Of a stretch of DNA of 64,000 bases, positions 1,360-58,511 are shown one piece after another. Each line of letters opens with the position of its first letter. Position 1 is the stretch's first letter. Both the position numbers and the translations under genes were made by a program. The DNA is from Spinacia oleracea (Eukaryota; Streptophyta; Magnoliopsida; Caryophyllales; Amaranthaceae), in the NCBI RefSeq assembly GCF_020520425.1, contig NC_079490.1, positions 124,454,715 to 124,518,714 on the forward strand, in the 5' to 3' direction. The notes beneath the pieces were generated by a model. It did no database searches and was not told where the DNA came from. It saw nothing but the letters and a program-made list of their open reading frames with translations.

Positions 1360-1364
1360 TAAGG

Positions 1365-2186
1365 ATGGCGGATGTGACGCTGATGGGAATGTCGGAACAG
1401 TGGAGGGATTGGGAGGAATTTTATCTTCCGTTGGCAAGTGAGTTAGATGCTGCGCCGTCGGTTACTCTACAGCGTCCATTACCCAGTTTAGGAATGAAGA
1501 TTTGTCTATGGAATGTCAGAGGTGCTTCGAAGGATAATTTTATTCCTCATGCTTGGATTATTGTGGAAGCCCAAAGGCCGGAGATTTTTATTTTGCTTGA
1601 AACAAAAAGTGAAGAATATAGGGCCCGTGAAGTCATGTATCGTCTCCGTTTTGATGAATACAGGGTTATTCCGCCGTCGGAGAAGAGAGGGGGTATCTGG
1701 TTGTTTTGGAAGAAGGAGGTGGATGTCATTAATTACACTGCATCAATTAATCAGTTTCACGTCCTTTTCCATTTCAAGAATATTGGAAGGGAAGCTTTGG
1801 TTACTGGTATGCATGCTCCAAGCGTACCAGAAAATAGACATCGTATGTGGCGTGAAATGCAGAAAAATCTACCGCCACGTATGACGCCTTGGATGATGAT
1901 GGGGGACTTAAATGAGATTACTGGGCAGGGAGATAAACAAGGTGGGAGGCCATTTAGAACATCACAATGTAGGGATTTGTCTAATTTTGTGGATGCGGCG
2001 GGATTAATTGATCTGGGTTATAATGGGTGTCCATTTACGTGGACTAATGCTAGAGATGGAGCAGCCTTGATCAAGGAACGCTTGGACAGAGCTCTGGTGA
2101 ATTCTCCATGGTTGCAGGTTTTTCCCTACACAAAGGTACATCATCTTCCTCGTACGTATTCAGATCATGCCCCAATTTTAGTTTGA
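1365..2186 (+). pseudogene. LINE ORF2 endonuclease domain (APE-like)
   Basis: N-terminal part of ORF2. After a leader of about 45 residues comes MKICLWNVRGASK, the WN[VI]RG start of plant LINE endonucleases. MGDLNEI follows near residue 180, then a GYNGCPFTWTN block, and the fragment ends in the YSDHAPI motif that closes the exonuclease-endonuclease-phosphatase fold. The enzyme nicks target DNA to prime reverse transcription. An in-frame TGA at 2184-2186, straight after SDHAPILV, breaks the protein; the same frame then continues into the linker before the reverse transcriptase. Confidence 0.85.
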
Positions 2187-5835: not shown

Positions 5836-6072
5836 TTGTAGCAGGAGGTCCCTTCACCTAGTTAATTGGATTTCAAAGTCTGATACTTTACTTATTTCTC
5901 TAGGTGAAGCTTTTGTAAATCTTTTGGTTAGTTATATGTGGTTTATGGGTTCTGTAAAGATATTTTGTTGGGCTTTCAGCTTTTGTAGGGTGTTTGGTTG
6001 TACAAAACTAATTCTGAAGCCCATGGGCTAAGTTAATATATTCTTCTTCTTATGTTAAAAAAAGAAAAAAAA

Positions 6073-11270: not shown

Positions 11271-11641
11271 AAGAAAGCCTTAGTCTCAAAATGATTTGGG
11301 GTTGGCTAACATGAATCGTCGTAGGAGATCGTCATTGTCACCAATCAAACCAGAAAGGAGTAGGAAGTAAAAAGAAAAAACAAGGAAGAGAAAGTGAAAT
11401 TAATGAAAGTAGGATAAGAGAAAAAATGTATATATATATTATAGAAGAAATAATGTAAGAGATAATGAAAAATAAGTAAAATTAAAATAAATGAATAAGT
11501 AAAATAAGTACATTTCAGAATACCATGTGAAATTAAAAAAAATATATATAATAATAAATAAATAAAATTGAAAGAATTTTAAGAATAAAACAAAAGTAAA
11601 AATAAAAATAAAGAGAATCAGAAACATTGAAGTTATATAAG

Positions 11642-13735
11642 TCAAATAAAGTCATCAATGTATATTCTCTCCCTCCACTCTGTCATATCCAACGCCATAT
11701 TTTCCTCAATCCCAAGAAAGCTCATATCGTGCTCAATCACCTTCCTCCAAGTTTTCTTAGGTCTTCCCCTACCCCTTGCAATTCTATCCCTTTGCCACCC
11801 TTCTATCATCCTAACCGGGGCATCATGTGATCTTCTCCTTACATGTCCAAACCATCTTAAACGATTTTCCATCATCTTAAACTCAATCGGTGCAACCCCT
11901 ACTTTCTTCCTAATAATCTCATTCCTCAAACGATCCTTTCTTGTATGCCCACACATCCAACGTAACATGCGCATCTCCGCCACATTCATCTTGTGCACGT
12001 GACAATGTTTTACTGCCCAGCATTCCGTGTCGTATAACAAAGCCGGTCAAATTGCCGTGCGGTAAAATTTTTCCTTCAATCTTTGGGGCATGCCTGAATC
12101 ACATAGGAACCCCGTGGCACCTTTCCACTTCAACCAACCTGCTTTGATTCTATGGGCTACATCGTCATCCAATTCTCCATCTTTTTGGATAATAGATCCT
12201 AAATAACGGAACATTGCAGAGCCTTTGACAATTTTCCCATCTAAGGTAATCGCCCCTGTCTCTCTATCTTGGACTCCACTAAACTTACACTCCATATATT
12301 CCGTCTTGTTTCTACTCAGTCTAAAACCCCGTGATTCCAAAGTTTGTCTCCATAACTCCAACTTACTTTCCACTCCTTCTTTTGTTTCATCAATCAACAC
12401 AATATCATCTGCAAACATCATGCACCAGGGTATACCATCTTCGATTGACCTCGTCAATTCGTCCATGACTATAGCAAAAAGAAACGGGCTAAGTGCGGAA
12501 CCTTGATGCACTCCAATCGTAATGGGGAATTCTTCGGTCTTGCCAACACTAGTTCTCAAACGTGCTAACTCCCTCATACATGTCCTTGATGATCAATATA
12601 CTTCCTCGGAATTCCTTTCCTATTTAATGCCCACCAAAGAATTTCTCTTGGTACCTTATCATACGTCTTCTCCAAATCAATGAAAACCATATGTAAATCC
12701 TTCTTCTTATCCCGATAATTCTCCATTAGTTGCCTTATAAGATGGATTGCCTCCATAGTCGATCTCCCAGGCATAAATTCAAACTGGTTCTCCGAAATTT
12801 TCACAGTTCTCCTCAATCTTTGCTCAATAATCCGCTCCCGGAGTTTCATAGTATGACTCATTAGTTTGATTCCTCGTTAGTTGGCACAATCCTGGACATC
12901 ACCTTTATTCTTGTACAAGTGGATGATAGTACTTTTCCTCCACTCTAATGGCATCCTATTACTTCCCCAAATCTTTTTGAAAAGAGTTGTTAACCATACA
13001 ACCCCTCTCTCTCCCAAGCATCTCCAAACTTCAATAGGTATACCATGCATTGGGCCCCACTGCCCTCTTGCGTCCCATCTTTTTCAGTGCCATTTCGACT
13101 TCTCTCTTTTGAGTTCTTCGCTTAAAGTCTAGGTTAGCTATATCTCGAGGGATATTTGTATCCCCAATATCGCGTCCTTGGTCCCCGTTGAACAAGTTAT
13201 CAAAGTAGAACCTCCATCTATCCTTAATTTTCTTATCTCCCACCAAAACTTTTTGATCAACATCTTTCACACATTTAATCCTCCCGATGTCTCGCGTCTT
13301 TATATCTCTCATTCGAGCAAGCCTATAGATGTCTTTCTCCCCTTCTTTTGTATCCAATCTTGCGTAAAGATCCTGATTCACCTTTGTTCTAGCCTCTCTT
13401 ACGGCCTTCTTTGCTTCCCTTTTAGCCTCCTTGTACTTCTCGTAGTTCTCATCACTTCTACATTTTCCCAACTCTTTATAGCACTCTCGTTTGCTCTTTA
13501 TAGCTTGTTGCACAACTTCGTTCCACCAGGATGTGTCCTTACTAGGTGGCATGATTCCTTTAGATTCCCCTAGGACCTCTTTCGCCACTCCCTTTATGGT
13601 GTGCTCCATTCTTGTCCATAATGAGTCTATATCCAAATCCATATCCGTGGCCCAAATACCTTCACTTGCCACCTTTTCCACGAATTTTAGTTGTTGTTCC
13701 CCTTGAAGTTTCCACCACTTGATCCTAGGCTCCAC
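11642..13735 (-). pseudogene. RTE-type LINE reverse transcriptase region
   Basis: Pieces in successive frames on the minus strand: 13735-13031 (linker, ending KRAVGPNA, the start of the palm), 12861-12574 (FIDLEKTYDKVPRE, palm motif A), 12577-12047 (HQGSALSPFLFAIVMDEL and catalytic FADDIVL) and 12040-11642 (RMLRWMCGHTRKDRLRNE, the conserved RTE C-terminus). A frameshift near 13035, a stop near 12880 and frame changes near 12580 and 12043 break the protein. The order and wording of motifs match the abundant plant RTE reverse transcriptases. Confidence 0.85.
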
Positions 13736-14982: not shown

Positions 14983-17020
14983 CGAATGAGAGATAGAAAG
15001 ACGCGAGATAAGTTTTGGAGGATTAAATGTGTGAAAGATAAGGAAATCAAGGATAAATGGAGATTCTACTTTGATAACTTGTTCAACGGGGGTCAAGGGC
15101 GCGATATTGGGGATACATATATCCCTCGGGATATGGTTAACCTAGACTTTATGCGAAGAATTCAAAAGAGAGAAGTCGAAATGGGACTGAAAAAGATGGG
15201 ACACAAGAGGGCAGTGGGGCCCGATGGTATACCTATTGAAGTCTGGAGATGTTTCGGAGAGAGGGGTTGTATGGTTAACAACTCTTTTCAACAAGATGTA
15301 GGGAAGTAATAGGATGCCAGTAGAGTGGAGGAAATGTACTATCATCCCCTTGTACAAGAATAAGGGTGATGTCCAAGATTGTGCCAACTATCTAGGAATC
15401 AAACTAATGAGTCATACTATGAAAATTTGGGAGCGGGTTATTGAGCAAAGATTGAGGACAACTGTGAAAATTTCGGAGAACCATTTTGGATTTATGCCTG
15501 AGAGATCGACTATGGAGGCCATTCATCTTATAAGGCAACTAATGGAGAATTATCGGGATAAGAAGAAGGATTTACATATGGTTTTCATTGATTTGGAGAA
15601 GGCGTATGATAAGGTACCAAGGGAAATTCTTTGGTGGGCATTAAGTAGGAAAGGAATTCCGATGAATTATATTGATATCATCAAGGACATGTATGAGGGA
15701 GTTAGCACGAGTGTGAGAACTAGTGTTGGTAAGACCGGAGAATTCCCCATTACGATTGTAGTGCATCAAGGTTCCGCACTTAGCCCGTTTCTTTTTGCTA
15801 TAGTCATGGACGAATTGACGAGGTCAATCCAAGATGGTAACCCTGGTGCATGATGTTTGCAGATGATATTGTGTTGATTGATGAAACAAAAGAAGGATTG
15901 GAAAGTAAGTTGGAGTTATGGAGACAAACTTTGGAATCTCGGGGTTTTAGGCTGAGTAGAAACAAGACGGAATATATGGAGTGTAAGTTTAGTGGAGTCC
16001 AAAGATAGAGAGACCGGGGGATAACCTAAGAAGGGAAAATTGTCCAAAGCTCTGAAATGCTCCGGCCGTTATTTAGGATCTATTATCCAAAAGGATGGAG
16101 AAGTGGATGGCGATGTGGCCCATAGAATCAAAGCAGGTTGGTTGAAGTGGAAAAGTGTACAGGGTTCCTATGTGATTCAGGCATGCCCCAAAGATTGAGG
16201 GAAAATTTTACCGCACGGCAATTCGACCGGCTTTGTTATATGGCACGGAATGCTGGGCAGTGAAAAATTATCACGTGCACAAGATGAATGTGGCGGAGAT
16301 GCGTCTTTTATGTTGGATGTGTGGGCATACAAGAAATGATTGTTTGAGGAATGAGATTATTAGGAAGAAAGTAGAGGTTACACCGATTGAGTTTAAGATG
16401 ATAGAAAATCGTTTAAGATGGTTTGGACATGTATGCAGAACATCAAGTGATGCCCCGGTTAGGAGGATAGAATGGTGGCAAAGTGATAGAATTGCAAGGG
16501 GTAGGGGAAAACCTTAGAAAACTTGGAGGAAGGTGATTGAGAACGATATGAGCTTTCTTGGGATTGAGGAAAATATGGCGTTGGATAGGACAGAGTGGAG
16601 GGAGAGAATATACATTGATGACTTCATTTGACTCATACTGCTTTCATGTTTCTGTTTCTTTCTATTTTTTATTTATTTATTCTTATTTTTATTTTTTATT
16701 TGATTTTTAAAATTCTTTTAATTTTTTTTGCTTTTTTGTGTTTTTTTTTTCCTTAAATTTTACATGCTATTTTGAAATGTTATTATTTTACTTATTCATT
16801 TATTATAAACTTTACTTATTTTTTATTATCTCTTACAATATTTCTTCCATAATATATATATATATTTCTCTTATCTTACTTTCCTTAATTCCACTTTCTC
16901 TTCCTTGTTTTTTTTTACTTCCTGTTTTGATTGGTGACAATGACGATCCCCTACGACGATTCATGTTAGCCGACCCCAAATCATTTTGGGTCTAAGACTT
17001 TATTGTTGTTGTTGTCGTCG
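14983..17020 (+). mobile_element. RTE-type LINE, 5'-truncated copy, plus strand
   Basis: The reverse of the 13315-11042 part of the neighbouring LINE, starting at CGAATGAGAGATA (14983) and ending in a TTGTTGTTGTCGTCGTC tail near 17020. It lacks the endonuclease, the usual result of incomplete reverse transcription. Relative to the left copy it has lost about 27 bp near 15035 and has its own stops and frame changes. The 3' UTR (16632-17000) is AT-rich and matches 11290-11640 in inverted orientation, without the SINE. Confidence 0.85.
14986..16631 (+). pseudogene. RTE-type LINE reverse transcriptase, truncated
   Basis: Pieces: 14986-15309 (KRAVGPDGIPIEVWRC near the end), 15314-15853 (MPVEWRKCTIIPLYKNKGDV, FIDLEKAYDKVPREI, HQGSALSPFLFAIVMDEL), then the catalytic [10 protein letters not shown] in another frame near 15858, and 16233-16517 (MLYGTECWAVKN ... 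CGHTRNDCLRNE). Frame breaks lie near 15310, 15850 and 16010, with a TAG near 16516. No function is expected from this copy. Confidence 0.85.
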
Positions 17021-30434: not shown

Positions 30435-30454
30435 CACTACAAGAAATTGATTAA

Positions 30455-31069: not shown

Positions 31070-34000
31070 CTAACACAAAGGTGTCCCCCCGCCGGTTGGA
31101 TCTCGAGGGTCCTGCGACTGCGAGAAAGGAAAACCAGTACACTGACTGAACATCCTCTCGTAAGACTCCATTGCCTTTTTCATCTTGGCGACACATTCTT
31201 CTCTCTCTTGTCTCTCCCTTTCTCTCTCTTGTCTCTCCCTTTCTATCTCCCTTTGATGCTCTAGTTGCTCTGCTTCTCTTTCTTCTCTCTCCCTTTGCCT
31301 CAAAAGAAGATCGTCCTCCATAGCCTTTAACATCTGAGTTTTTGTTGTTTCAAGCTCAATGGATTTTTGAGTCAACTGTTGTTGAGTCTCTTCCGAACGT
31401 GTTGAGATTTGAGAATAAATAGATGGGGTGTATGAGCTAAAAGAACTACCACCCCTTCTAGATGGTGCAAAGTATAGAGAGTCTCCACTCCCCAGCCCGG
31501 GGACCTTTCCCTTCTTTCTAATCAATTTAAGCACATTTAAGTCATATTTGGTCGATATAGGTCATATATCGACCAAATAAGGAATTTTCGCTCCCATTTT
31601 TCAACAAAAAGAAGTAAGGGCTGATTTTAAACTTAAAACATGTTTTATAAGCTTAGTTTGAACTTGCTAAGACACATTCAAATGTATTTACTCACATCTA
31701 AGGCTTATTTGGTCGTTATAGGTCATATTTTGCCTAAAATGTCATTTTCTCGCCCAACATTGAACTAAGGAACCAAACTTGTCATTTCAAACCATTTACA
31801 TGTTTTATGTGGCATATTCAAGGTTTTTAAAACTGATTCTAATCAATTTAAGCACATTTATGTCATATTTGGTCGATATAGGTCATATATCGACCAATTA
31901 AGGCATTTTCGCTACCATTTTTCAACTAAAAGAACTAAGGGCTGATTTTAAACTTAAAACATGTTTCATAAGATTAGTTTGAACTTGCTAAGACAAATTC
32001 AAATGTATTTACTCACACCTAAGGCTTATTTGGTCGTTATAGGTCATATTTTGCCTAAAATGTCATTTTCTCGCCCAACTTTGAGCTAAGGAACCAAACT
32101 TGTCATTTTAAACCATTTACATGTTTTATGTGGCATATTAAAGGTTTTTAAAACTGATTCTAATCAAATTAAGCACATTTATGTCATATTTGGTCGATAT
32201 AGGTCATATATCGACCAAATAAGGCATTTTCGCTCCCATTTTTCAACTAAAAGAACTAAGGGCTGATTTTAAACTTAAAACATGTTTCATAAGCTTAGTT
32301 TGAACTTGCTAAGACACATTCAAATGTATTTACTCACATCTAAGGCTTATTTGGTCGTTATAGGTCACATGTTGCCTAAAATGTCATTTTCTCGCCCAAC
32401 TTTGAGCTAAGGAACCAAACTTGTCATTTCAAACCATTTACATGTTTTATGTGGCATATTCAAGGTTTCTAAAACTGATTCTAATCAATTTCAGCACATT
32501 TAAGTCATATTTGGTCGATATAGGTCATATATCGACCAAATAAGGCATTTTTGCTCCCATTTTTGAACTAAAAGAACTAAGGGCTGATTTTAAACTTAAA
32601 ACGTGTTTCATAAGCTTAGTTTGAAGTTGCTAAGACACATTCAAATGTATTTACTCACATCTAAGGCTTATTTGGTCGTTATAGGTCATATTTTGCCTAA
32701 AATGTCATTTTCTCGCCCAACTTTGAGCTAAGGAACCAAACTTGTCATTTCAAACCATTTACATGTTTTATGTGGCATATTCAAGGTTTCTAAAACTGAT
32801 TCTAATCAATTTAAGCACATTTAAGTCATATTTGGTCGATATAGGTCATATATCGACCAAATAAGGCATTCGCTCCCATTTTTCAACTAAAAGAACTAAG
32901 GGCTGATTTTAAACTTAAAACGTGTTTCATAAGCTTAGTTTGAACTTGCTAAGACAAATTCAAATGTATTTACTCACACCTAAGGCTTATTTGGTCGTTA
33001 TAGGTCATATTTTGCCTAAAATGTCATTTTCTCGCCCAACTTTGAGCTAAGGAACCAAACTTGTCATTTTAAACCATTTACATGTTTTATGTGGCATATT
33101 AAAGGTTTCTAAAACTGATTCTAATCAATTTAAGCACATATAAGTCATATTTGGTCGATATAGGTCATATATCGACCAAATAAGGCATTTTCGCTCCCAT
33201 TTTTCAACTAAAAGAACTAAGGGCTGATTTTAAACTTAAAACATGTTTCATAAGCTTAGTTTGAACTTGCTAAGACACATTCAAATGTATTTACTCACAT
33301 CTAAGGCTTATTTGGTCGTTATAGGTCACATGTTGCCTAAAATGTCATTTTCTCGCCCAACTTTGAGCTAAGGAACCAAACTTGTCATTTCAAACCATTT
33401 ACATGTTTTATGTGGCATATTCAAGGTTTCTAAAACTGATTCTAATCAATTTAAGCACATTTAAGTCATATTTGGTCGATATAGGTTATATATCGACCAA
33501 ATAAGGCATTTTCGCTCCCATTTTTCAACTAAAAGAACTAAGGGCTGATTTTAAACTTAAAACGTGTTTCATAAGCTTAGTTTGAACTTGCTAAGACACA
33601 TTCAACTGTATTTACTCACATTTAAGAAATAAGAATAATAGTAAGTTACCTTTATTTGCTTTGCTTTTCTACTACACGGGACTTTCCCTTTACCCGGTAC
33701 TTCCTTCGTGTGTGTCTTCAAATATAAGTCACCAGCTGTAGGCATCACACCTCCACTTTCCTTTGCCTAATTATACAAGTAATTTGTGTAAATAATCAAA
33801 TTAGTAACAACGTTAAATGAAATTTAGTTACATTATTAAACTTACCATTTTCTTTGCAGCCTCAATTGTGGAAATGGAACCTTGGAAATGTGATGGTTCA
33901 ACTTTGTTGGTTAATGAACCCCCTCTTCTATTTTTCTTAGCCTGCTCAGATCTTTTCTTGAATTCATCATCATCCACGTACTTCATCATATCTGCATGCA

Positions 34001-34739: not shown

Positions 34740-36785
34740 CTGTTTATTTAGTAGAACACAAACCAAGTTTAAATAATTCAAATTTCAATCATAAGTTTAC
34801 CAAACGACTACATAATTCCTCGATTGGACATCTATTTATTTAGTAGAACACAAACCAAGCATTAACATTAATAAACTTACGCTACATATATAATTACCTA
34901 ATAACAAGTAACAAACAACTTTAGATTGTCTAACAAACATAAATTTATACAACCAAAATAAAAAGTTCAATGATAAGTTCAATAAACAACAACATAATTC
35001 AAAGTTCAATCATAAAAGACAACACATGTCAAATTTCAATCATAAGTTTACCAAACAACTACATAATATTTCTTGAACCTAAAATTAAACAACCAAATAG
35101 AACCAAAATCAGCAAGATCAAGTTAATCGTCGTATCCATCATCATCATCGTCATCATCATCATCATCAGTGCCATCATCACCATCATCCTCATCCTCATC
35201 TTCATCATCCTCATCCTCATCACTCATACTATCAGCATCACCATCATTAATATCGTCATCATCATCATCATCATCATCATCATTATCTTGATCTTCATAA
35301 TCTGGGATCTCATCTGGAGCACAAAGAGCTGAAGAAACCTCATTTGCATCTTCTTGCAGAAATTCTAAGTCAACCGGAGCATCAATCACAGACCTTGCCT
35401 TAGTTTTAAACACAACCCACCATTGGGCTTTATCCCTCTTCAAACTGGGGTAATGTGCAATGTATACTTGACTAACTTGGTAAGACAATACAAACGGGTC
35501 ATATTTTGGGTATCTCTTAGAATGATTGACCTCAACAAGTTTGTATTGTTCATGAATCTTCATACCCTTCACGGAATCCATCCAGCTGCACTTAAACAAG
35601 ATTGTCTTGTACTCTTGAAGCTTACCACAATAAGAAACTTCAACCACCTCCTCCAAAATGCCAAAGTAGTCAACTTCATCAGGACTTTGTACACACACTC
35701 CATAATTCATAGTTGACTTGTGTTGCCGTACTCATGAGTTTGAAAATTATATCCATTCACATAGAACCGGCTCCATGTCCTTACTTGTCTAGAGGGGCCC
35801 ATCGCAAGCGCCCGTGTCACATCATTAGGACTCAAAGACCGGAGAACCTAATTCGTAGAATTAGTTAGTAATTTTTTTTTCTTTCAATGACTAGTGTAAG
35901 TAATATTATATATGAATAAAAGCAAAATACAATTAATCTCACATGTGACTTAAACCATTCAGGGAACTGGGCTTCGCATTTACTCCAAATATCCTCCATT
36001 ACTATGTGAGGTTGAGTTTGGAGAATGTGCTCCTCAAATTTCCTATGGTAATTAAGGAAATAAAGGTTAAATACGTCGTTAGAAGAGTTTACAATAATTA
36101 AATTATATTTTATTACCTTTCATATTCACCTAAGATACCACTGTTTGCAAGCACATAAAGATGTGCTCGATCATACTTTATGTCTTGCAAAAAGCGCAAA
36201 CGACCATTAGTAGGTGCACGACCACAATCAACCCTGAACATCTCGGGGATATTAACGTCATGTTGGTTCTCAACAACCGAATGGACGTTTATTCCTAGAT
36301 CCCTTGCTTTGGTGTCAACCTCAGGTTGAAAATAGTGGGAACAAAAGTTCGAAATCTCCTCCATTAGGTAAGCATTGCATATGGAGCCTTCTACACGTGC
36401 CTTATTTCCAACCTTACGCTTCAAATGGTTAAGAAACCTATAAATTATGTAAGTGTGATTAATAGTTACTAGTAAACATATAAGATATTTAAAGTAATAA
36501 TTTATTTACGCTTATTTGTATTACTTTGATTACCTTTCAAATGGGTACATCCACCTGTACTGGACGGGACCACCAACCTTTGCCTCATGTGGAAGATGAA
36601 CTAGCAAGTGTTCCATTGAGTTGAAAAATGCAGGTGGAAAAATCTTCTCTAGCTTGCACAAGATCTCAGCTATATTCTTATCCAAGCGATCTATGTCACT
36701 CGCTTTGATAGTGGGGGCTCATAAGTCTCGGAAGAATTGACTAATCTCTGTAATTGCCTTCCAAACATGCAAGGGAAGCAACTCC

Positions 36786-38163
36786 TGAAGGAAATAATTC
36801 CCTTGGTCCAAGTATGTATTCAATGTTAAGTCTAATAAATGCGGTTCAGTATTAATTAACAAGTTAATAATTCAGTGAGATCAAGTGAGCTGAATGCCTA
36901 GCTAGAGGCCGCTTCAGTTCAAGTGGAATTAATGATATTAATCCACAGCTTACTCTTGACTGAACCCGTAGGGTCACACAAATAGTACGTAAACGGATCA
37001 AGTATTTAATGGCATTAAATACTCCATCTATGGATATTCGGAATCGACGGATCTTGGTTTCAGTGGGAGCTGAGATCGTCACAGGCAAGAAAAGAATGCT
37101 CCGGAAACGATGATATTACCGGAAACGGAAATATGGATCGTATCGGAAATGTAAATATTATACAAGTCGTAGATGTTGCCGGAAACGGAAACATGGTACG
37201 TATCGGAAAATATTATCGGAAATGGAAATATTGCCGGAATCGGAAATATTGCCGGAAACGGAAATATTGTCAGAATCGGAAATATTATCAGAATCAGAAA
37301 ATAATTCCGGAAACGGAAATATTAAATATTTGTTCGAAACGGAAATTAATTCCGGAATCGGAAATATTAAATATTGTTCGTATCGGAAATAAATTCCGGA
37401 ATCGGGAATTTAATCGGAAGCGCGTCGTACGAATTAGCATCGGACGAGACTTGCTAGACGAAGGCCCAGCACGAAGCCAGGCCTACGCTCAGCAAGCCCA
37501 AGCGCCCAAAAACACGCTGCCAAGCCACGCCCGGTCCAGCGCAAGGCCAGGCCCAGCAATAGGCCTTGGCGCGCGCGCGGGGCTGCGACGAGTGGGCTGG
37601 CGCTGTGCGTGGGCCGCAAGGCCTGCGTGCGGTGCTAGCGTATCACTCGAAGTGTATTACTCGAATCCTAAGGCTACCGGGATTTGTCATATGATTAAAT
37701 CTAATCCTAAAAGATTTAGTTTGTTTAATTAGAGTCCTAGTAGGATTATAATTAAATAAATTAGTATCCTAATATGATTCCAAATCCTTTTCCATAACTC
37801 TATAAATAGGTGCCTAGGGTCACATATTTACATAGAGAATTCAAGTATTCAAAGTGATTTTTGAGAGCAAAAATTCAGTCATACAATTGCCTAATAAGTG
37901 CCGAAAATTCTAAGTACCTTAAGGGCGATCCTAGTTGGTCAAGCTTAAGGCGGATCCGGACGTGCTGTGGACTATCTACGGAGGGACGACACTTGGAGTC
38001 CTAAAGACTTGTTCTTGTTCGGTTCGGGCGCAGCTAGGGAAGGCACGCAACAAAGAGTATGCATCTAAACTATGCTAAATGATTATGTGTAAATAATATG
38101 TTTTCCTGGCTTTATGGTTTTTCCGCATGATTTATGAATTGCCATATGTATCATAACCCAACA
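36786..38163 (+). repeat. Copia 5' LTR
   Basis: Starts TGAAGGAAATAATTCCC and ends CATAACCCAACA. Contains a cluster of CGGAAACGGAAATATT-like short repeats (about 37100-37420), a GC-rich segment (37440-37640) and a TATA-like CTATAAATAGG at 37798-37808, so the likely transcription start lies around 37830. Confidence 0.9.
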
Positions 38164-44700: not shown

Positions 44701-45811
44701 TGAACTTGACTGGATCACATGTCTGCTGACTTGATGGTTCTTCATTGCAAAATGCGTAGAACCACTATCGAAGTAAGAAAGACTAGATCACATACTAAAC
44801 AAACTCAAAAGATCTTATCATCATATCTCGAAGAACATTCGATGAAAAGGATATTAAGATTGGCAAAGCATGATAACTAAACCTATGCAACAAGTGAGAA
44901 GCAACACTCACATTGTAGCACTGGAAATCAAGCATAGCTTTGAATTCCATGAACTATTTTAAAGATGGGTTTTGAGGCCCATGGTTGTAAAACGTTGGGG
45001 TTGAACATTTATCATATATGAAATGTATTTTCATATTCCATTTAATCTTGGTTTAGTATTAAATGATGAGTCCCTTCAATTTGACGATATATTCAAGATA
45101 GACTGTCAGGACCAGTCCTGTGACTAAGAAATGTCTATCAAGTGAACTTGAATGTCAAAGGTTGAAAATGGTCCCTAGTCGGAGTTTTCTATAAAATTGG
45201 ACGCATAGAAAACGTTAGACGATTAGAATGCAAGATGACTAGTAGTTCTGTTTCTTGAACTATGTGGACATGGCAATGTCATAATCATTTGCATAGATAC
45301 TTACTTTGGGAAGACTAGTATCGGACAAGACCTATGAAACTTTACTGTAAGAGATGAAAATCTGTCATAAGTAAATTTCATTAAAATTATTAGACACTAA
45401 ATCCTCAATACCTGAGTGATTTGAGATTACTTGTTTGAGAACTGGTTGCTTTGACGTTGACCAACCGTCGCACCGTAAAAGGAGGCTATAAAGGCAACGC
45501 TCAGGTAATCACCTACCAAACGAAGTCTAATCTCAAGATCACAAGATTGGGATTGTCCTCCCATAAATCGGGATGAGATGCTTAAAAGTTGTACAAGGCC
45601 ACTCGGAGAGCTAGAAACTGTGAAATGCATGGCCGTGCTCGGATGAATCATAGGCTATGATTATCTGTTTATTTGATCAATTGAACTCTGAAACCGAGGA
45701 ACACCTCTGGACATAATAAGGATGACAACTCTTACCTTATGTTCAAGAGCAAGCATCGAGCGACAAAGGAATTAGGAAATGCACACTTGCCCCTAAGGAC
45801 AAGTGGGAGAC

Positions 45812-47189
45812 TGAAGGAAATAATGCCCTTGGTCCAAGTATGCATTCAATGTTAAGTCTAATAAATGCGGTTCATTATTAATTAACAAGTTAATAATTCA
45901 GTGAGATCAAGTGAGCTGAATGCCTAGCTAGAGGCCGCTTCAGTTCAAGTGGAATTAATGATATTAATCCACAGCTTACTCTTGACTGAACCCGTAGGGT
46001 CACACAAATAGTACGTAAACGGATCAAGTATTTAATGGCATTAAATACTCCATCTATGGATATTCGGAATCGACGGATCTTGGTTTCAGTGGGAGCTGAG
46101 ATCGTCACAGGCAAGAAAAGAATGCTCCGGAAACGATGATATTACCGGAAACGGAAATATGGATCGTATCGGAAATGTAAATATTATCCAAGTCGTAGAT
46201 GTTGCCGGAAACGGAAACATGGTACGTATCGGAAAATATTATCGGAAATGGAAATATTGCCGGAATCGGAAATATTGCCGGAAACGGAAATATTGTCAGA
46301 ATCGGAAATATTATCGGAATCGGAAAATAATTCCGGAAACGGAAATATTAAATATTTGTTCGAAACGGAAATTAATTTCGGAATCGGAAATATTAAATAT
46401 TGTTCGTATCGGAAATAAATCCCGGAATCGGGAATTTAATCGGAAGCGCGTCGTACGAATTAGCATCGGACGAGACTTGCTAGACGAAGGCCCAGCACGA
46501 AGCCAGGCCTACGCTCAGCAAGCCCAAGCGCCCAAAAACACGCTGCCAAGCCACGCCCGGTCCAGCGCAAGGCCAGGCCCAGCAATAGGCCTTGGCGCGC
46601 GCGCGGGGCTGCGACGAGTGGGCTGGCGCTGTGCGTGGGCCGCAAGGCCTGCGTGCGGTGCTAGCGTATCACTCGAAGTGTGTTACTCGAATCCTAAGGC
46701 TACCGGGATTTGTCATATGATTAAATCTAATCCTAAAAGATTTAGTTTGTTTAATTAGAGTCCTAGTAGGATTATAATTAAATAAATTAGTATCCTAATA
46801 GGATTCCAAATCCTTTTCCATAACTCTATAAATAGGTGCCTAGGGTCACATATTTACATAGAGAATTCAAGTATTCAAAGTGATTTTTGAGAGCAAAAAT
46901 TCAGTCATACAATTGCCTAATAAGTGCCGAAAATTCTAAGTACCTTAAGGGCGATCCTAGTTGGTCAAGCTTAAGGCGGATCCGGACGTGCTGTGGACTA
47001 TCTACGGAGGGACGACACTTGGAGTCCTAAAGACTTGTTCTTGTTCGGTTCGGGCGCAGCTAGGGAAGGCACGCAACAAAGAGTATGCATCTAAACTATG
47101 CTAAATGATTATGTGTAAATAATATGTTTTCCTGGCTTTATGGTTTTTCCGCATGATTTATGAATTGTCATATGTATCATAACCTAACA
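45812..47189 (+). repeat. Copia 3' LTR
   Basis: Same length as the 5' LTR, starting TGAAGGAAATAATGCCC and ending CATAACCTAACA. A purine-rich tract, AAGGACAAGTGGGAGA (45795-45810), lies just before it and would prime plus-strand synthesis. Confidence 0.9.
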
Positions 47190-49200
47190 ACTCCTTCAAA
47201 GCAAACGGAAGTAACCTCTCCATGAAGAGATGACAATCGTGGCTCTTCATTCCATACAGCTTGCATGATTGAAGATTAACACACCTGCTCAAGTTTGAAG
47301 CATAAGCATCCGGGAATTTCAAGTCTCGGACCCATTCACATAACACCTTATTTTGAGCCTTGTCAAGTGCAAAAGGTGCTTTGGGCATGGTTTGATTTCC
47401 ATTTTCAAGCTCTAACTGCCGACGTTTACAATACTTAGCCATATCTTTCCTTGCAATAGTGGTGTCCGAGGTGCTGCCTTTCACATCCATCACAGTGTTT
47501 ATGAGTTGGTCAAAAAAGTTCTTTTCAATGTGCATGACATCCAAGTTGTGACGAATAAGCGAATCCTTCCAATATGGGAGTTCCCATAGAATACTTTGTT
47601 TGAACCAACCCTTTTTGGCACTCTTCAACTTCTTAAGATCTTCAGGACCATCAGTTGCTTTAGGCAAGTCCTTCACACATTGCCACAATTCTTCTCCACA
47701 CATTATATGCGGACCCATGCCATTTTCAACTTTGTTTTTGCAGAAAGCTGTTTTATTCTTTTGAAAAGGGTGATCATGTGGAAGGAATTGTCGATGGCAA
47801 TCAAACCATGAAACTTTACCTCCATGTTCAAGCCAAAATGCCTTTATTTTATCCATACAATAAGGGCAAGCCTTCTTTCCAGCAGTGGACCATCCAGATA
47901 GCATTCCATATGCAGGGAAATCACTAATAGTCCACAAAAGGGCTGCGCGGAGGTTGAAATTTTGCTTGCTTGAGATGTCATAAGTCATAGCCCCAACCTC
48001 CCATAACTGTTTCAACTCTTCAATGAGGGGTTGCATGTACACATCCAAGTTTCCTTTAGGATTTTTAGGACCGGGAACGAGCAAAGAAAGGAACATGAAT
48101 GGTCTTTTCATACACATCGATGGAGGCAAGTTGTATGGTGTAAGAATAACTGGCCAACACGAATATTGGGATCCAAATTTACCATGGGGGGCAAATCCAT
48201 CCGTGCACAAACCAAGACTGACATTTCGTGGCTCTGATGCGAAATTAGGAAAGGTTGTATCCAAGTGCTTCCACGCTTCACTATCACTAGGATGTGCAAA
48301 GGTGTTTTGAACTCGGGGATTCTTGGCATGCCAAGTCATATCCTCCGAAATGTTCTTGGTAGCATACAACCTTTGCAACCTCGGTGTGATTGGAAAATAG
48401 ATTAGAACTTTTTCTGGAATAAGCTTGCCCTTTGCATTCTTCTTATACCGATCACTTCCGTATACTCTACATTTATCTAACTGTGCATCGCCTTTCCAGA
48501 AGAGAAAACAACCTTTTAGGGCATGTGTGGATCCTCTCATGAGGAAGTTCCAATCCCTCAAGAACCTTCTTTGTGCTATTGAAAGTTCTACCCATTTGGT
48601 TGTTATTTAGAATCGCATCATTCAACAAATTGCAAACCCATCCACACACCTGTGTTTTAAGTTGAATTCACATTTCAAACTTGCAATTCTTGATGCCATC
48701 TCCAACACAGAGAGTTTGCTCCCTTCATATAATGGATCTCCAGCTGCCTTTAGAAGGTCTATAAACTTCTTAGCTTCAACATTTGGTTCTTCTTCAACTG
48801 AATTACCCTCTTCATTCAACAAATGCTCTTGATTATTTCCAAGAGCATCAATAACCATATCCCGATATTGATTTGGCTGAACACGCGAGGACTCTACTAA
48901 GCTTTCCCCTTGACATATCCATTGATTGTAATTACGAACAAACCCCTTCTTATAAAAATGTACTCTAACTGTTCCAGTATCATGGAAACGTCTGTTATCA
49001 CACAAGGGGCATGGGCATCTTATTTTGTCACCATAATTGCATGTTGGATGCTCTTTGCAAAACTCAATGAACTCTCCAACCCCCTTGAGAAAGTCGGGCT
49101 TAAGATTGCGCCCGTCGATTCTATCATACATCCAACTACGCTCTCTTCTTTTCATGATACCAAATTCTACACATCTCACAAAAAACATGTTACTAACCAA

Positions 49201-50671: not shown

Positions 50672-50894
50672 ATACTACTTCAAAAAAAATATGTAACTTC
50701 TTTAAACATGAGCAAAACTTGTGTAATCTAATATATCTACTACTTTACTATGTAATTCCTAAAACTCTTAGATGCAACTATTGATTTTTACACTAACTAT
50801 TATATTCACACATACCTCTACTTTTTCTGTTTTTTAGTGATTATTAATACTTTATGATGAACATAGTCATGTACTCTGTACCCCGTAGGATTTT
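50672..50894. other. Spacer between the two CACTA elements
   Basis: 223 bp of AT-rich DNA. No gene or element end recognised. Confidence 0.4.
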
Positions 50895-50914
50895 CACTAG
50901 TAGAAAAAACCCCT

Positions 50915-51150
50915 GTTGCAGCCCCCTTGTTGCAGCGTACAAGTATAAATACGCTTCAACAACCAGTCGGTCAACGCGGGTCAAACCCTTTAAAGGGTTA
51001 TCGCAGCGTACATTTTAGTTGTTCGCAACAAATGCGTTTGTTGCAGCGTACAAAATAAAAGCCCGCAGCAACAACCCGAAGTTATTGCAGCGTACATGTT
51101 AATGCCCGCTACAACAAGTCTGCGTTTCAAATTAAATTTTTTACTTTCCT
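50915..51150. repeat. CACTA-2 left subterminal repeats
   Basis: At least five copies of TTGCAGCGTACA or close variants, all in the same orientation. Right-hand copies lie at 56855-57175. Confidence 0.8.
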
Positions 51151-51289
51151 AGTTGCAACGTACAAACCGCGCTCAAACGAGAAACGTACGTACGTTGTTC
51201 CTTCTCTGCTATAGCTCCAAGCCTTTTCCCTTAAACAAATATCCAAGGTCGCCGTCGAACTCAGCCCTGCGTCGCCGTCGAACCCAAGA

Positions 51290-51480
51290 GTTGCTCAGCC
51301 CTGCGTCGCTGTCTTGGTTCCGTTGGTTGCTCATCTCCCCGTCGCGTCGTGGTTCAGCCCTGCGTCGCTGTCTTGGTTCCGTGGTTTAGCCCTGCGTCGC
51401 TGTCTTGGTTCCGTGGTTCAGCATCTCCCCGTCGCGTCGTGGTTCCGGTGGTTGCTCGGCGTCGTGGTTCCGGTGGTTTC
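51290..51480 (+). repeat. Short GC-rich direct repeats
   Basis: Three copies of CCTGCGTCGCTGTCTTGGTT (from about 51299, 51359 and 51392) and two of CATCTCCCCGTCGCGTCGTG. Probably leader or promoter sequence ahead of the captured gene. Confidence 0.6.
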
Positions 51481-51539
51481 GGTATGGTGTGTTCAATTTT
51501 TATTTTCGTTTTTTATTTTAGTTTTCAGATTAGGGTTCA

Positions 51540-51675
51540 ATTTTAGTTTTTGATTTTCGTTTTGATTATTGTTTTTGATTTTCGTTTTTGATTTTCGTTT
51601 TGATTTTCGTTTTGATTTTCGTTTTTGATTTTCGTTTTGATTTTCGTTTTGATTTTCGTTTTTATTTTGATTTTT
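51540..51675 (+). repeat. GATTTTCGTTTT microsatellite-like stretch
   Basis: About eleven irregular units of TTTTTGATTTTCG just before the ATG of the captured gene. Confidence 0.7.
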
Positions 51676-51692
51676 TTGGCAAAGGACTAAAA

Positions 51693-54600
51693 ATGGCGAC
51701 AGAGGAGAAGTTAAAGAAGAGTGAAGAACAAACCCAACTCTTGGAAACGGTCTCCGCCACCGTCTCCGCTGTTTCCACGGCCAAATATGTCGATGATGTC
51801 ATTTTAGCTCTTCATTCCGTCGCTCTCCTCATTTTCCCTATCGACACTTCCTCTCTTTCAGGTGGGGTACAAAAACAACTCCATTTTTTCGTTTAATTAA
51901 ATTTAATATCTCCATTTTTTTGCAATTTTTCTTCTCAAGTTCATTACTTTTGAAGCACCCATTATTCAAAAATGTTGAAAGAAATCGTAATTTTGAACTA
52001 TATTAATCTGGAAAACTCAAGAATTTGCCTGTTTAATTATTCTGGGGGAATCCTAATTCTTAAATTTCTGGGGTGTTAGCTTAATTTTGGGAATTGATTT
52101 AAGCATTGAATTAAAGAAGAAAACATGGGGTTTTGCTAATAATCTTGTATTTGTGTGCTCATTGATTTTGCAGGAGTAATCTCAGAGAAATACAGTGATC
52201 AGGTAACTATTTTTATTGTTATCTGACTTATAATAAGTTATCAATGTTCTTTCTTTGTCGCTTAGGAAACCCTTATTGGAACTATTAGCCTGAATGCGAA
52301 CTAATTTTTACTGAAACTTGTAATTTTAGGCGAAGAGAACAAAGCCCATATATTGTTCAAGAATTCATGAATCTATGTTGTTTAATGCTTACTAGATGAA
52401 TGCTAGTAAATGAGTGTATATTGTACAAATTGTTGCAATTCTTTCTAATTTACCTTCTCTCGACGATATACCCTTGCCTTTAAGAAAGTAGCATCTGTAG
52501 ACTATTAACCCAACTCACAGGAGGGGGTGGGGGTGTTCGTGTGTCTTTCGGGATTACAGTTGTAGAATTCTAGCTTTCGTTGATGTATAATAATGTCCTT
52601 GGAATTGACATTTCAGCTCAATCAAGCAGAAGCAACCTATACGAGTGAGAGGAGGAATCAAGTGTGGGAAGTCTTCTATAAAGGAGTCTCATTTCCTACA
52701 TTATCAAGATTTTTGATCTATGGTGACTTTCCTTTCATTTCTTCTGTTTTAAATCTAATTCAGTGATGTTGCTATGTTCAGTGTTCTTTTGTTACATTTT
52801 TATGATAAAATGAAGTCCGGTTGCTACTTGCTAGAAGTAAAATGTGGAATCATAAGTTCATAACCTACTAAGATCATTTTGTTGAGCGAATGGATGCATG
52901 AGGGGAATGCCTTTCAGTAAGAAAAAAGCTTATGCTCCCATCATTTTGTTAATGGTTCTTGCTTACACTGTTCTGTAAAATTAAAACTTACATAGGTACA
53001 TACAATTTTCCATGCTAATCCAAATGCCTTACATTTTCTTTTCAAAAGTTAATAACTAGTGCAATTTCCTTAATCTATTAGCTTGTAAAGAATAGGTCAG
53101 AAGAGGAGGCAAATGGTTTGCACATGAATACAGTTGTTAAGTGGTATTTTTGAAGGATGGTTTAATATATAAGTGAGAGAGAGGTTATGTCAAAGATTGT
53201 GGCCATTGATACCAAAGAAGTAAAATGTGACATGGGAATATACGAGAGGCTGGATTTGCAGTCTAGTTGGGGTTGTTTTCCATTTGTGTGAATAAAGGAT
53301 TTGCCACTTGTGACTACCAGTTGTAATTGTTTTCAAATTAAGCTGCTTGAGTGAGATCGAGAAGCTTGGGTTGGTTGAAACAATTATCTGCAGCTAAAAT
53401 TTTTCAAATAATAATTACAATTCTTCTTCTTTTGATTATTTGCAGATGTTGCTTCCAATTGGCTACCTTGCTTCCCTTTGACTGCAAGGAAGCTTGTTTA
53501 TGATGTATTTTTCATAGAGGGTCTCGTTCTGACAGTGTCTAGAGTGGCACAGCTTGTTGCGTCTGTCCCTGACAAAGCACGACTAGGAGCTCCTAAATCT
53601 CTTTCATCTCAGTATCCTTTTCATATTCAACTAAATGTACATGCTTAATATTTATAAATTGTCGACTTGGTTAAAATCAGTTATCTCAGTCTTTTTGTCG
53701 TAGGAATTTCATCAACTCCTAAATATCTTTCATCTCAGTATCCTTTTATACTATACTAAATATGCATGGTTAATATTTATGAAGGATTGTTCACTTGGTT
53801 AGAATCTGCTTCTTTCAGTCTCTGTGTCATGGAAACATATCTGCTGAGTATTTCCTTGTATCCAGATCTTAAGTTGGGCAACTATGGTCTTTGTTTATTC
53901 TTGACTAAGGTTCTTAGTTTGTTTTTCCAGAGCATCACTATTCAGCTTCTGGATGGAGCAGAAGAAAAAAGCTGGGAGTTATATGATAAAGAAGTTTTAT
54001 TTCATGGCACTGATGTGGATGATACCTTCCAGTTTGTTGCAGAAATGTTTGCTCGCATTTGTCGACGTGGATCGACCGGTAAGACAGAATTTTTCTCACA
54101 GAAACGTTTCAATACTCAACTTCTTTGTGTTTTCATTTGGGGTCAAATATAGTAATAAGCTTTGGTTGGAAAACATCAATGTTGCGTTTGCCTTTGGCTA
54201 CTGTTAAACTTGGAATTTTTAGCTCTTTAACAATGGATTTTACTGTTTCTTGTGAAACCAATTGCTGAAACTTCTGAGCATAACTGTAGATTTCTTAGAT
54301 TCATAAGTTTGATACATCTGTATTTTATTTTATGAAATGCTTATGATTCCAGTCCTAGTGAATTATGGAGAATCTTTCATATATATCACCATCAAGCTAG
54401 GTTGACCAAGGCCATACACCATGATCTTTGAGAGAATGCTGGTTGAACGGTTACTTTGGGGATACGTAATATCTGTCCCATAGTAGGGAATAGGGATTGT
54501 TTGTTTGAGATACAGAGAAACTAAATGAAGATGAGAAAGTTTTCCATTTCTTGGTTTGCTTTGGGAGGGAGGATTGGATGTGGATGGAAAAAACTTATTT

Positions 54601-56585
54601 CTGCATACTGCTATATCTGTATAGCAAAAGGTCGTAGGTTTGGAAATTCAGAAGCTTTTCTAATATTCAGAATTCTTAGTTGTACAGTATATAGCACTCT
54701 CCATTTCTGCCTCTCTTGCTAGCAGTAGCAGACTCCTTTCCACCTTAAAATATCTAAATTCAAGTATTGGTACTTCTCATGCGTAGTGCTGCTTTCCTTT
54801 ATGGTAACAATTTACATACATCTGACAAGAACTGACAAAAAAAAGAAAAAACTACAGTTACACAACTTTCTCAGCCAATTCTACACTAAAAGCTAATGTC
54901 TTAGGTTGCCAGGGTCACTCAAGCTCCACAAGTGCAGCCTAGGCTTACAGGGCTAGGACTCATAAACCTTTTTCTTTCATTCATCAATAGGGCTCTCTGT
55001 GTCATTGACTCATTTGGTTGGGTTTAGGAAGTTTCAGACTTGCATTTGCCATGAAGTTGAACTTCAGAAGAAGCTACTTTCACACTTTTGGCTGGTAGAC
55101 AATAAAACTTCTGGGGAAGTTCTACTACCAGCCTTTTTGTTAGCCACATAATTCAGCAATTTGGTAGTTATCAGGAAGTTGTCACTTTTCTTTTCAACAA
55201 AGTGACCATGTGGAAATTGTTTTTTCCCCTCTTATTAGCTACTAGTGACCATGTGAAGCAATTAGATATCTGCCTATATAGGGGAACATTCTTTTATGCT
55301 GACTTAAAATGTTAACTGCAGAATTGCTAGTAAATGAGGTGATCCTCCGAATCCGCAGACGTGTACAAAGATTTTTATTGTCCCATAAAGGTACAATCAC
55401 CGAGAACAGTATCAAGTCAAACTCCGATTTTCAGTTCTGGTTCTTGATGATAGAAATCCTTAGAGATGCTTATGTTGTGGAGAAAATGATTGAGAGAATC
55501 CTGCATCAGCTGGCAGCTGAATGTGAACATGACACCGAAGCATATTGGATACTATGGATATTGTTCCATCGGGCATTCCAACATCAAATAACAATCAGGT
55601 GAGATTAATAGTTCTGCTGGATGTGTTTGATAGAGATTGGACGATTTGACAGTGTTAATGTTAGTATTCTCTTGCTTTTTTTTTTTTTGTTTTGTTTGTT
55701 TGATCTGTTCACTTCGGTTGGAAAATGATTGATACTTCTCTTGGTGATGAATTGCATTGCAACTGAGAACATTATGAATAACTGAATATGGAATTTGGAC
55801 TGAGTCAGTGTTAGATTTATGTTTCTAGGACTCTAGAATCTAGATTTCACTTGAAGAACATGTGTCCGATCCTCAACAATGCCGTACAAGTGTGGGCACC
55901 TGATACTTCATATTAAGCAAAAAATATGTAAAAACTTTCATAAAATTGCAGGTGACACTTGAAACGTACATGTGTTTAATACCCAAGTCTGAGTAACATT
56001 GATCGATATGTAGTTTTGAAATGTTCTGTAAAGAACTACCAAGTTCTTTCTTCAATCTGTCACACACTCGCACAAAAATATAGAAAAGAAGAAGCTTTTG
56101 ATTAGCACCAAACAGTACGGATACAAATAGGCAGTAGCTTGAGGCTACAAATCTCCAAAATAGTGACTTTAGGTCACAAGTCTCACAATTCACTACTCAT
56201 TTTCTAAACTTCTCTCTTCCTCTAATTCTATTTATACTAACATTCTCTACTGACTGCTCTGTTGTCCTTGTTGTTTGCTGTTGTGTTTCTATTGTTGTTG
56301 GGCTGCTCTTCTTGGTCACAAGTTTCTATTGTTATACTAACATTCTGTTGTTATACTAACATTCTGTTGTTTGCTGATTCGTATTCTAGACTATTAATAC
56401 ATTGTCATTAGTTGCTTGAATGTTAAAATGTGACATTTCATTTGCATTTAATCGATCTAATGCTCCATCAAATTTTTGTTTTTGTAAGGTCTATACTCCG
56501 AGGACTGCGCCTTATGCTAGTGAGGAAATTGATGTGGTTCGTGAGCAATGGGCGAAGTTTTTTACCACCAAGTATTTATTATTGA
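51693..56585 (+). CDS. Captured TEL2/TELO2-like gene fragment with an intact chimeric frame
   Basis: Proposed exons: 51693-51861, 52174-52202, 52617-52722, 53446-53611, 53918-54078, 55322-55598, 56489-56585. All introns begin GT and end AG, and the frame stays open across all joins (about 334 residues). The protein resembles the N-terminal half of plant telomere-length-regulation TEL2 homologues (EMB2423-type): AKYVDDVILALHSVALLIFP, DVASNWLPCFPLTARK, VPDKARLGAPKSLSS, FARICRRGST and EAYWILWILFHRAF. TEL2 acts in a chaperone complex that stabilises PI3K-like kinases. The C-terminal half of that gene is absent; the last exon joins transposon sequence read in another frame (31 residues, stop TGA 56583-56585). 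A stretch usually found between FFIEG and SRVAQL in the family seems missing, so an internal deletion is possible. Identity is from memory of the family. Confidence 0.6.
53591..53830 (+). repeat. Tandem duplication in the captured gene
   Basis: CTCCTAAATCTCTTTCATCTCAGTATCC with about 100 following bases (53591-53700) is repeated in diverged form at 53717-53830 (core TCTTTCATCTCAGTATCC). The second copy lies in the intron after exon 4 and repeats the 5' splice site. Confidence 0.6.
55599..56488 (+). other. Intron or junction between captured gene and transposon exon
   Basis: No coding seen. The boundary between captured host DNA and transposon DNA must lie in this interval. A repeat of ATACTAACATTCTGTTG occurs twice near 56335-56365. 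Confidence 0.4.
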
Positions 56586-56590
56586 CCTGA
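56489..56590 (+). pseudogene. Ulp1-type protease C-terminal exon remnant
   Basis: One frame reads TPRTAPYASEEIDVVREQWA followed by KFF and a stop at 56588-56590. This resembles the C-terminal tail of the Ulp1-like cysteine proteases often carried by plant CACTA elements. The catalytic His/Asp/Cys region is absent. In the spliced captured gene this exon would be read in a different frame. Confidence 0.45.
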
Positions 56591-56854
56591 GGGCGCTTGA
56601 TCGTGTTGGTTTAGATGTTATAGAACAATCTTTTATGTTAAAATGTATGCGTACGTTGAAATTGGAACGTAAATATATTTAAATGTATCGGTATGTGCAC
56701 TTTTGGTTTTGGGATATATACAAAACTCCAGTTGTTGTTTTTATATTTGTTATACAGGTTGCGTTATTCTATTATTGTTTTGACAGGTTTCTATATTTGG
56801 TGCAAGGCACTCTAGGTATCCCTAAACAAAATTAGAATTTTCCCGCCAAAAGTG

Positions 56855-57175
56855 CTTTGTTGCAGCGTACATTTATGTTGTACGCTGCAACAAGGGAAAA
56901 AAATTTCGCAAAAATTCAGACTTGTTGCAGCGTACAAATTAATGTACGCTGCAAAAAGTTGAGTCTTTTGCAGCGTACATATATATGTACGCTGCAACAA
57001 GTCCAAATTTTTGCCAATTTTTTGGCACTTGTTGCAGCGTACATCTAAAAGCCCGCTGCAACAAATCACTTTTTGCAGCGAACTTGTACGCTGCAACAAG
57101 TTCAGACTTGTTGCAGGCCCCCCAGTTGCAGCATACGATGTACGCTGCAACAGGGGTCTAAAAGCCCGCTGCAAT
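56855..57175. repeat. CACTA-2 right subterminal hairpin repeats
   Basis: About six TTGCAGCGTACA copies, most paired with the inverse TGTACGCTGCAA a few bases later, so the DNA is a row of small hairpins. Three clear pairs span about 56860-57000. Confidence 0.8.
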
Positions 57176-57195
57176 AAGGGTTTTTTCTACTAGTG

Positions 57196-58511
57196 TTTGT
57201 TGGATTTGTCTAAATACTTACATAATACTACTATTTTTTATATATTTTTTACTAAATTTAAGATATTAATAGTTGAAGTTATTTACTAACAAATGAAAAT
57301 AAAAGTGATTTTATCCAAAAGAAATAGAAAGAAGTAGTAAACAAGAAAAATAATGTGCGAATAACACATATATAGTCCTCTTTACTTAAGAAATCTCCTC
57401 CAAATATTTTAGGCTAAACAATTGACTTATATTTTAGTCGACTTTTAACAAACATATGTATACGGAATACTAAACTAAAAGAGAGGTAAATTGATATGGA
57501 GCTGACAAATCCCGCTCTAATTTCCTCTTTTATAATATCGGTAACTAACCTATGAACAAATAATTAATATACTTTGTATATATTTTACCTAGAATCTTCT
57601 AATTACTTATGGTAATAATCGATTATAGTACGAATTACTTATTTACCCATGTCAATAAATTTCTTAATTTAAATCTGTATACGTCGTACTATACTGAAAG
57701 AGAGGAAAATCGATGTAGAGATGACAAATGTCCCTCTCTGATTTGCCTCTTTTATACAATAAATAATGATTAATTGTAAGTACTATCAAGTTCAGTTTAG
57801 AAATTATGTCATATACTGAGTACGGATATGTTCAACGTTCATTTAATAGTTTATTTTATGTAATCCAATGAAAAATCTTTGCATACAATTTCTGATAACC
57901 GATATAGAAAATCTTATCATAGTTTAATTTGTACTATCAATTATATTATTATAATACTATTCAACTTTTTGAGAATTTGTTCATATATATAATGAATACG
58001 GATATGCATAATAAAAGCTATTGATTTAATGTATTTAACAAGGTTGTCTCAAACATTTTATAAGCCCTTTGTTAACTACCTAAATGATCCCCTTAGCCAT
58101 ATAATTTCTTTAATACGAAGTCTATACTTAATCATAAATATCAAAAATAACTTTTACCACATTCTCATTATCATAATATTTTTATACGGAGCACTGATAA
58201 TAATTTATTCGCTCATATTATTGAAGTCTTAAGAGTATGTTGATTGAAATTTTGACTAATGTATCGTAATGGACTATGTCCAAATTAAAGTCATACGATC
58301 TAGATGATTAAGTTTAATTATTATTAATATGTTTGCAATACAAAATATTTTTTATATATTAATGTAAATGACTGCAATATCACTTTAAAATTTCGTGCAA
58401 AACTAAATTTATATATGTAAATGGGGAATCACAATTGATGATGGAGAATAACAATTGATGATGGGGCGAGTTTGAATTTTAGATTGGTTTGACGATAAAG
58501 TTAAACCTAGA
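57196..58511. repeat. AT-rich DNA with Helitron-like 5' ends
   Basis: No gene seen. Two related segments near 57470 and 57690 (ACTAAACTAAAAGAGAGG and ACTATACTGAAAGAGAGG, each with TGACAAAT and CCTCTTTTAT about 50 bp later) match the start at 29822. No Helitron 3' ends were found. Confidence 0.45.

Follow-up and report, generated by a model that had tools for sequence, protein, structure and literature searches.

Within a 64,000-nucleotide stretch of the Spinacia oleracea genome (NC_079490.1, positions 124,454,715 to 124,518,714; hereafter the window, whose own coordinates are used unless a contig is named), positions 50895–57195 are a non-autonomous CACTA element of the Pack-CACTA type, which carries the 5′ part of the essential gene TEL2 in sense on the + strand. 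The element is bounded by 28-nt terminal inverted repeats that start with CACTA, at 50895–50922 (CACTAGTAGAAAAAACCCCTGTTGCAGC) and 57168–57195, 93% complementary to each other, and is flanked by a perfect TTT target-site duplication (50892–50894 and 57196–57198); such ends and a 3-bp duplication are features of the CACTA superfamily, as are the short subterminal repeats in both direct and inverted orientation, which lie around TTGCAGCGTACA at 50924–51120 on the 5′ side and at 56857–57167 on the 3′ side. No transposase domain was found by Pfam in the three sense frames of 50900–57190 or the three antisense frames of 51600–56600; TELO2_ARM was the sole family detected in the sense frames, and the antisense frames gave none. 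Host gene cargo inside the ends, no transposase domain found, and a resident version of the cargo gene elsewhere in the genome are together what characterizes a Pack-CACTA. An earlier note on this DNA, made from the letters alone, had described clean ends, a perfect TTT duplication, the loss of transposase genes and the capture of a TEL2-like gene; the first three are borne out in the regions just given, and the capture by the ends, the Pfam match, the resident TEL2 and the dispersed copies described below.

The captured genomic segment spans 51678–56026 on the + strand, from 15 nt 5′ of the ATG into the intron that follows donor exon 7. Its exons, all on the same strand, lie at 51693–51861 (exon 1), 52174–52202 (exon 2), 52617–52722 (exon 3), 53446–53611 (donor exons 4 and 5, fused), 53918–54078 (donor exon 6) and 55322–55598 (donor exon 7, the start of the TELO2_ARM domain). 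Spliced through five GT-AG introns they give an open frame of 302 codons plus 2 nt, and residues 211–301 of the translation match PF25320 (TELO2_ARM) with an E-value of 9.5e-25, a match to the domain start only (profile positions 2–92 of 242). The C-terminal Telomere_reg-2 domain is absent from the element in the three sense frames scanned by Pfam and present in the resident TEL2, and the copy is therefore a TEL2 fragment and not a TEL2 gene. A PDB sequence search with the 302-amino-acid copy returned no match at E-values up to 1. The resident TEL2, a donor alignment to which had been proposed in the earlier note, was found at C1:128722442–128727056, the one TEL2 match without element ends among the matches listed; its N-terminal 360 residues contain TELO2_ARM (E-value 3.5e-25) and a later exon encodes Telomere_reg-2 (E-value 1.2e-19).

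Relative to the resident gene the cargo lacks 345 bp, a loss that comprises 58 codons (174 nt) together with an intron, with the deletion point near 53529 and the fusion in frame. Precise intron loss, as from a spliced RNA intermediate, was considered and rejected because the gap also takes the coding ends of two exons; the cargo keeps introns and was therefore copied as DNA. The 345 bp are still present in six other copies (L013–L018), so the deletion occurred later, in the line leading to the three full copies. What had been read as six consecutive exons with all introns kept are thus N-terminal TEL2 exons that represent seven donor exons, and not every intron was kept, since the fourth exon fuses two donor exons.

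Upstream of the cargo is a 5′ leader (51200–51677, +) of GC-rich tandem repeats followed by T-rich repeats, and downstream is the last exon of the element's ULP1-type gene (56489–56590, +; VYTPRTAPYASEEIDVVREQWAKFFTTKYLLLT and a stop), the ULP1 label being based on an upstream exon retained in L013 whose likeness to Peptidase_C48 (E-value 0.0017) is below the curated cut-off. The claim of a single frame through all joins holds for the 302 codons plus 2 nt, with two reservations. For donor exon 6, the fifth in the element, the frame depends on an acceptor such as that at 53918, a type of site that the resident TEL2 also has; the pyrimidine-rich acceptor at 53931 would break it. The join to the ULP1 exon is not clearly in frame either: use of the acceptor at 56489 would add 32 residues outside the ULP1 frame, and use of that at 56503 would enter the ULP1 frame.

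The genome searched contains 894,210,420 bases in 242 contigs, with six contigs (C1–C6) accounting for ~879 Mb. At least 10 elements carry TEL2 sequence (40 of 3086 candidates scored), and the window element is thus not unique, as the search for further copies recommended in the earlier note established. Three are full copies, the window element together with L011 (C5:101531616–101537904) and L012 (C4:58853449–58859774), the latter two sharing its ends and interior at 97–99% and lying at other sites with different flanks. Five have larger deletions (L013, L015, L016, L017 and L018), and two are composites: L014, of 7,244 bp, combines TEL2 exons with a TFIIB segment, and L019 has TEL2 ends around a NADAR/RibD_C segment in which the RibD_C match is below its curated cut-off. 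A TEL2 pseudogene that happens to lie between chance CACTA-like ends could be imagined given a second pair of such ends in the window (30435 and 50671), but the two additional complete copies in different flanks, and the deleted and composite copies, refute this, and we consider it next to impossible. Perfect 3-bp duplications flank 13 of the 15 bounded elements in the family (window, L012–L016, L018, L019, L022, L025, L033, L034 and L038). Copies at many sites are evidence for past movement only.

The 3′ end of L014 is 5.8–7.4% different from the others compared, and its TEL2 introns only 0.3–0.8%, so that L014 looks, from these comparisons, like a recombinant between two elements. A mixture is likewise seen at the 5′ ends, with those of the window element and L011 differing by 5–6% from L012, L013, L014, L015, L017, L019 and L022, and that of L025 by 28–30% from the other nine compared.

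Within introns the three full copies are 0.35–0.70% apart and the nine copies 0.28–0.84% apart, and all nine are 5.1–5.8% diverged from the resident TEL2, a value far in excess of the diversity of 1.33e-3 given for S. oleracea in PMC8668906. Coding changes were counted over 360 donor codons in nine copies, with deleted copies contributing only the codons they keep and late codons covered by three or four copies only; L019, which has exon 1 and its end only, was excluded and would add one synonymous change. The copies share 12 nonsynonymous and 18 synonymous differences from the resident gene, corresponding to a ratio of nonsynonymous to synonymous substitution rates (Ka/Ks) of 0.19–0.23. In contrast, 15 nonsynonymous and 2 synonymous changes arose among them after amplification (Fisher P 0.0018), which fits a Ka/Ks of 1 (P 0.15–0.23) and has a probability below 3e-4 under a Ka/Ks of 0.23. 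There are also single-base frameshifts in L017 and L018 and lost splice donors in L016 and L018, although assembly error remains a possible source of single-base changes in the copies. Transitions are balanced on the shared branch (57 GC>AT, 65 AT>GC) and skewed to GC>AT among the later changes (26 versus 9; P 0.004 for the difference). A GC>AT skew is a tendency of methylated transposons.

These figures bear on the proposal that the captured piece is a functional gene under selection, for instance a truncated TEL2 that acts on partner proteins. In its favor, the spliced frame is open in all three full copies, Ka/Ks against the resident gene is low, and no disabling change became fixed on the branch common to the copies; the chance that a neutral copy would come through half of the divergence unharmed is 0.008–0.09. 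Against it are the excess of nonsynonymous changes, the two frameshifts and the two lost donors after amplification, the absence of most of the C-terminal part of TEL2, the deletion of 58 codons from the full copies, and a like pattern of constraint in the TFIIB cargo; we judge such a gene improbable. The earlier note had taken the open frame to be unexpected for a neutral passenger and inferred that the copy could be selected, and neither view is supported. With copies so little diverged, a neutral copy with 0.28–0.4% change is estimated, using assumed indel rates, to keep its frame and splice sites with a probability of 0.46–0.75, and the open frame therefore requires no selection. The intact frame in the copy is no sign of selection, and the cargo is probably readable as a result of recent copying rather than of usefulness. 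The Ka/Ks comparison proposed in the note accordingly has two answers, a pattern consistent with 1 among the copies and 0.19–0.23 against the resident gene, the latter attributed to divergence before capture.

The other cargos help to place the origin of this constraint. The TFIIB segment of L014 (4640–6760; C3:153324889–153327009) differs from the resident gene at C1:96944612–96947142 by 8.4% in noncoding sequence, and its three exons have 4 nonsynonymous and 13 synonymous differences where at least 24 nonsynonymous would be expected (P 8e-7); the copy also has a one-codon gap and a GT to GC change in one splice donor. This segment nonetheless has 15 full-length matches in the genome including L014, of which 14 are shown as 100% identical and one as 99%, a very recent burst of gene-carrying sequence, so that here too constraint came first and copying is recent. 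Since the TFIIB cargo behaves likewise, we attribute the constraint in TEL2 to two gene lineages having diverged ahead of capture; it seems less likely that two unrelated truncated cargos were both selected than that the source was itself a working gene, already diverged from the resident one when captured. By the same comparisons the captured TEL2 segment probably came from a lineage of the gene that differed by ~5% from the resident one.

An alternative is that the segment was taken from the resident TEL2 itself several million years ago and then drifted neutrally. The family does capture from residents: the MSH cargo is a 99.7% match to its resident gene, with 7 differences in 2,636 sites, the YEATS cargo aligns at a displayed identity of 100% with C3:156528720–156530569 over 1,850 of 2,501 bp, and both are, as judged from sequence identity, recent captures from resident genes. 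However, the nonsynonymous changes are too few for drift in TEL2, with 12 observed and at least 21 expected if half of the divergence grew in a neutral copy (P 0.020), as they are in TFIIB, and the balanced transitions on the shared branch have a probability of 0.0004–0.014 under assumed skews. We therefore think this origin unlikely, though less so than a selected gene. For the RNase_T cargo the genome matches are many and partial, so no resident gene is named.

We favor, with a probability of roughly 0.78, the reading that this is a Pack-CACTA carrying the 5′ part of TEL2 whose frame is intact through a working source and recent multiplication rather than selection, the source probably being the ~5% diverged TEL2 lineage. 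A copy of genomic DNA from the 5′ part of TEL2, with its introns, would have taken the place of the element's interior, in sense between the 5′ leader and the last ULP1-type exon. An autonomous relative would supply transposase, and in any transcript starting in the leader, splicing would be predicted to run across the cargo in the direction of the ULP1 exon. A cargo taken from a working gene and then multiplied recently would retain its frame.

Several observations count against this reading. If the count of later changes is restricted to the three full copies, it falls to 8 nonsynonymous and 2 synonymous (P 0.065); constraint in the shared differences would also be expected from a selected early copy; the shared TEL2 changes are counted over the resident and the source side together; the NADAR/RibD cargo, 2.0% from its resident, carries no information on constraint (P 0.47); and L011 and L017, the other two of the 15 bounded elements, have no matching duplication. 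We raise as a tentative extension that the TEL2 and TFIIB segments might both come from a gene pool 5–8% diverged from the resident genes (a related species, through hybridisation or horizontal transfer, or lost paralogues) and then have multiplied, with the sense-only layout between a common leader and a last exon acting as a ready gene trap. If true, Pack-CACTAs would serve to bring essential genes into a genome in foreign versions.

The size of the family allows the layout of the cargo to be examined. A genome search for the 28-nt 3′ end that allowed up to 2 mismatches gave 1,870 hits and the reversed control none, a count of ends and not of elements because the element's 5′ end is also within 2 mismatches of the pattern. 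From the first 14 listed sites with an exact 3′ end we fetched 12, excluding two ~400 bp apart; both ends were present within 6.1 kb in three of the 12 (L033, L034 and L038), and a Pfam scan of six (L032, L033, L034, L037, L038 and L040) identified cargo in two bounded elements. In L037, L038 and L040 there was no Pfam match in 18 frames; L038, which looks SEH1-like by eye, was not counted, nor was L032, which has sense EF-hand and bZIP matches with none antisense and in which the 5′ end was not found. The elements from the genome search were chosen by their common 3′ end and not by cargo, and the cargo scan left out L020, L021, L023, L024, L026, L030, L031, L035, L036, L039 and L041.

Seven bounded elements contain nine identified host genes (TEL2, TFIIB, NADAR/RibD, MutS (MSH), RNase_T, YEATS, MatE, a TRP1-like ubiquitin domain and GCN1), and every one of them has the same (sense) orientation as the last ULP1 exon. 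L034 (reverse of C1:7561054–7567153), flanked by a CGT duplication, has three of them, MatE, the TRP1-like ubiquitin domain and GCN1, within 120–6000. No Pfam match was found in 21 antisense frames over the cargo of the seven elements. The sense bias has P 0.0039 by gene and P 0.016 by element, with the cases not fully independent because three genes are in one element and the window element, L014 and L019 have TEL2 in common. A G|GTATGG site near 51482 recurs in the leaders of L033, L022 and L019, which makes four of the seven leaders compared, and may have a splice role; the common part of the remaining three is limited to the first ~210 bp. Together, the sequence arrangement suggests that cargo becomes trapped with a leader exon on one side and the ULP1 exon on the other. 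Our literature searches on cargo orientation listed no paper recognisable as a report of a sense bias for CACTA cargo, and among the papers listed on Pack-CACTA, spinach gene capture, and plant TELO2 with transposable elements none dealt with TEL2 capture or a spinach Pack-CACTA. New here is a Pack-CACTA from a large and recently active family, in which the identified cargo lies in sense only and two cargos probably derive from a diverged source. More generally, it is easy to mistake an open frame in captured sequence for a sign of selection, and it is the several copies, the resident gene and the sister elements that separate the two, placing the constraint before amplification. The family also allows two questions to be tested: whether sense is the only orientation in which cargo is retained, and whether the donors of captured segments are resident genes or diverged relatives of them.

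Several other features are present in the window. Two facing CACTACAAGAAA ends lie 20.2 kb apart at 30435–50671, the right one 223 bp from the TEL2 element, with TNP2 transposase open reading frames (Transposase_21, E-value 2.6e-78) between them on the minus strand; those at 47158–49200 belong near ends unlike those of the TEL2 element. The pair is likely, though unproven, to be one element; its flanking three bases mismatch (TAC, ATA), and two such ends occurred in 8 of 100 shuffles. A tandem array at 31516–33626 with a 321/160-bp unit is ~75% identical to arrays in L020, L021, L022, L024 and L026. Direct repeats of 1,379 bp at 36785–38163 and 45811–47189, 99.1% identical and ~9 kb apart, are as expected for the long terminal repeats of a young retroelement, and an inverted pair of ~2-kb segments (11274–13238 and 15036–17001) is 90% identical, with open reading frames that are reverse-transcriptase-like by eye.

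Helitrons have neither inverted ends nor target duplications, unlike the spinach CACTA element. In maize Helitrons several genes can be gathered stepwise into one element (PMC3288121), with which L014, L019 and L034 may be compared. Closer to spinach, the Jozin CACTA elements are described from Chenopodium, in a related plant family (PMC8978399); the quinoa ends open with the identical 14 nt, CACTAGTAGAAAAA, the comparison being of the first 14 nt of the ends only. Captured gene fragments and satellite arrays are reported for Jozin, and the word Spinacia is absent from the main text of that paper (PMC8978399). Tgm-Express1 of soybean (PMC1947982) is likewise a CACTA element with host gene fragments that keep their introns, and its cargo is spliced into chimeric transcripts; the soybean element combines five fragments and sits inside a gene, whereas the spinach element is multi-copy and its splicing is predicted. 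The nearest counterparts are the Pack-CACTA and Pack-TYPE elements (PMC8903248, PMC13317346), likewise non-autonomous, with CACTA ends, a 3-bp duplication and host gene cargo. Both reports describe capture by way of neighbouring insertions and aberrant excision, a route that would fit the mixed ends of the spinach elements, which differ from these relatives in having cargo found only in sense.
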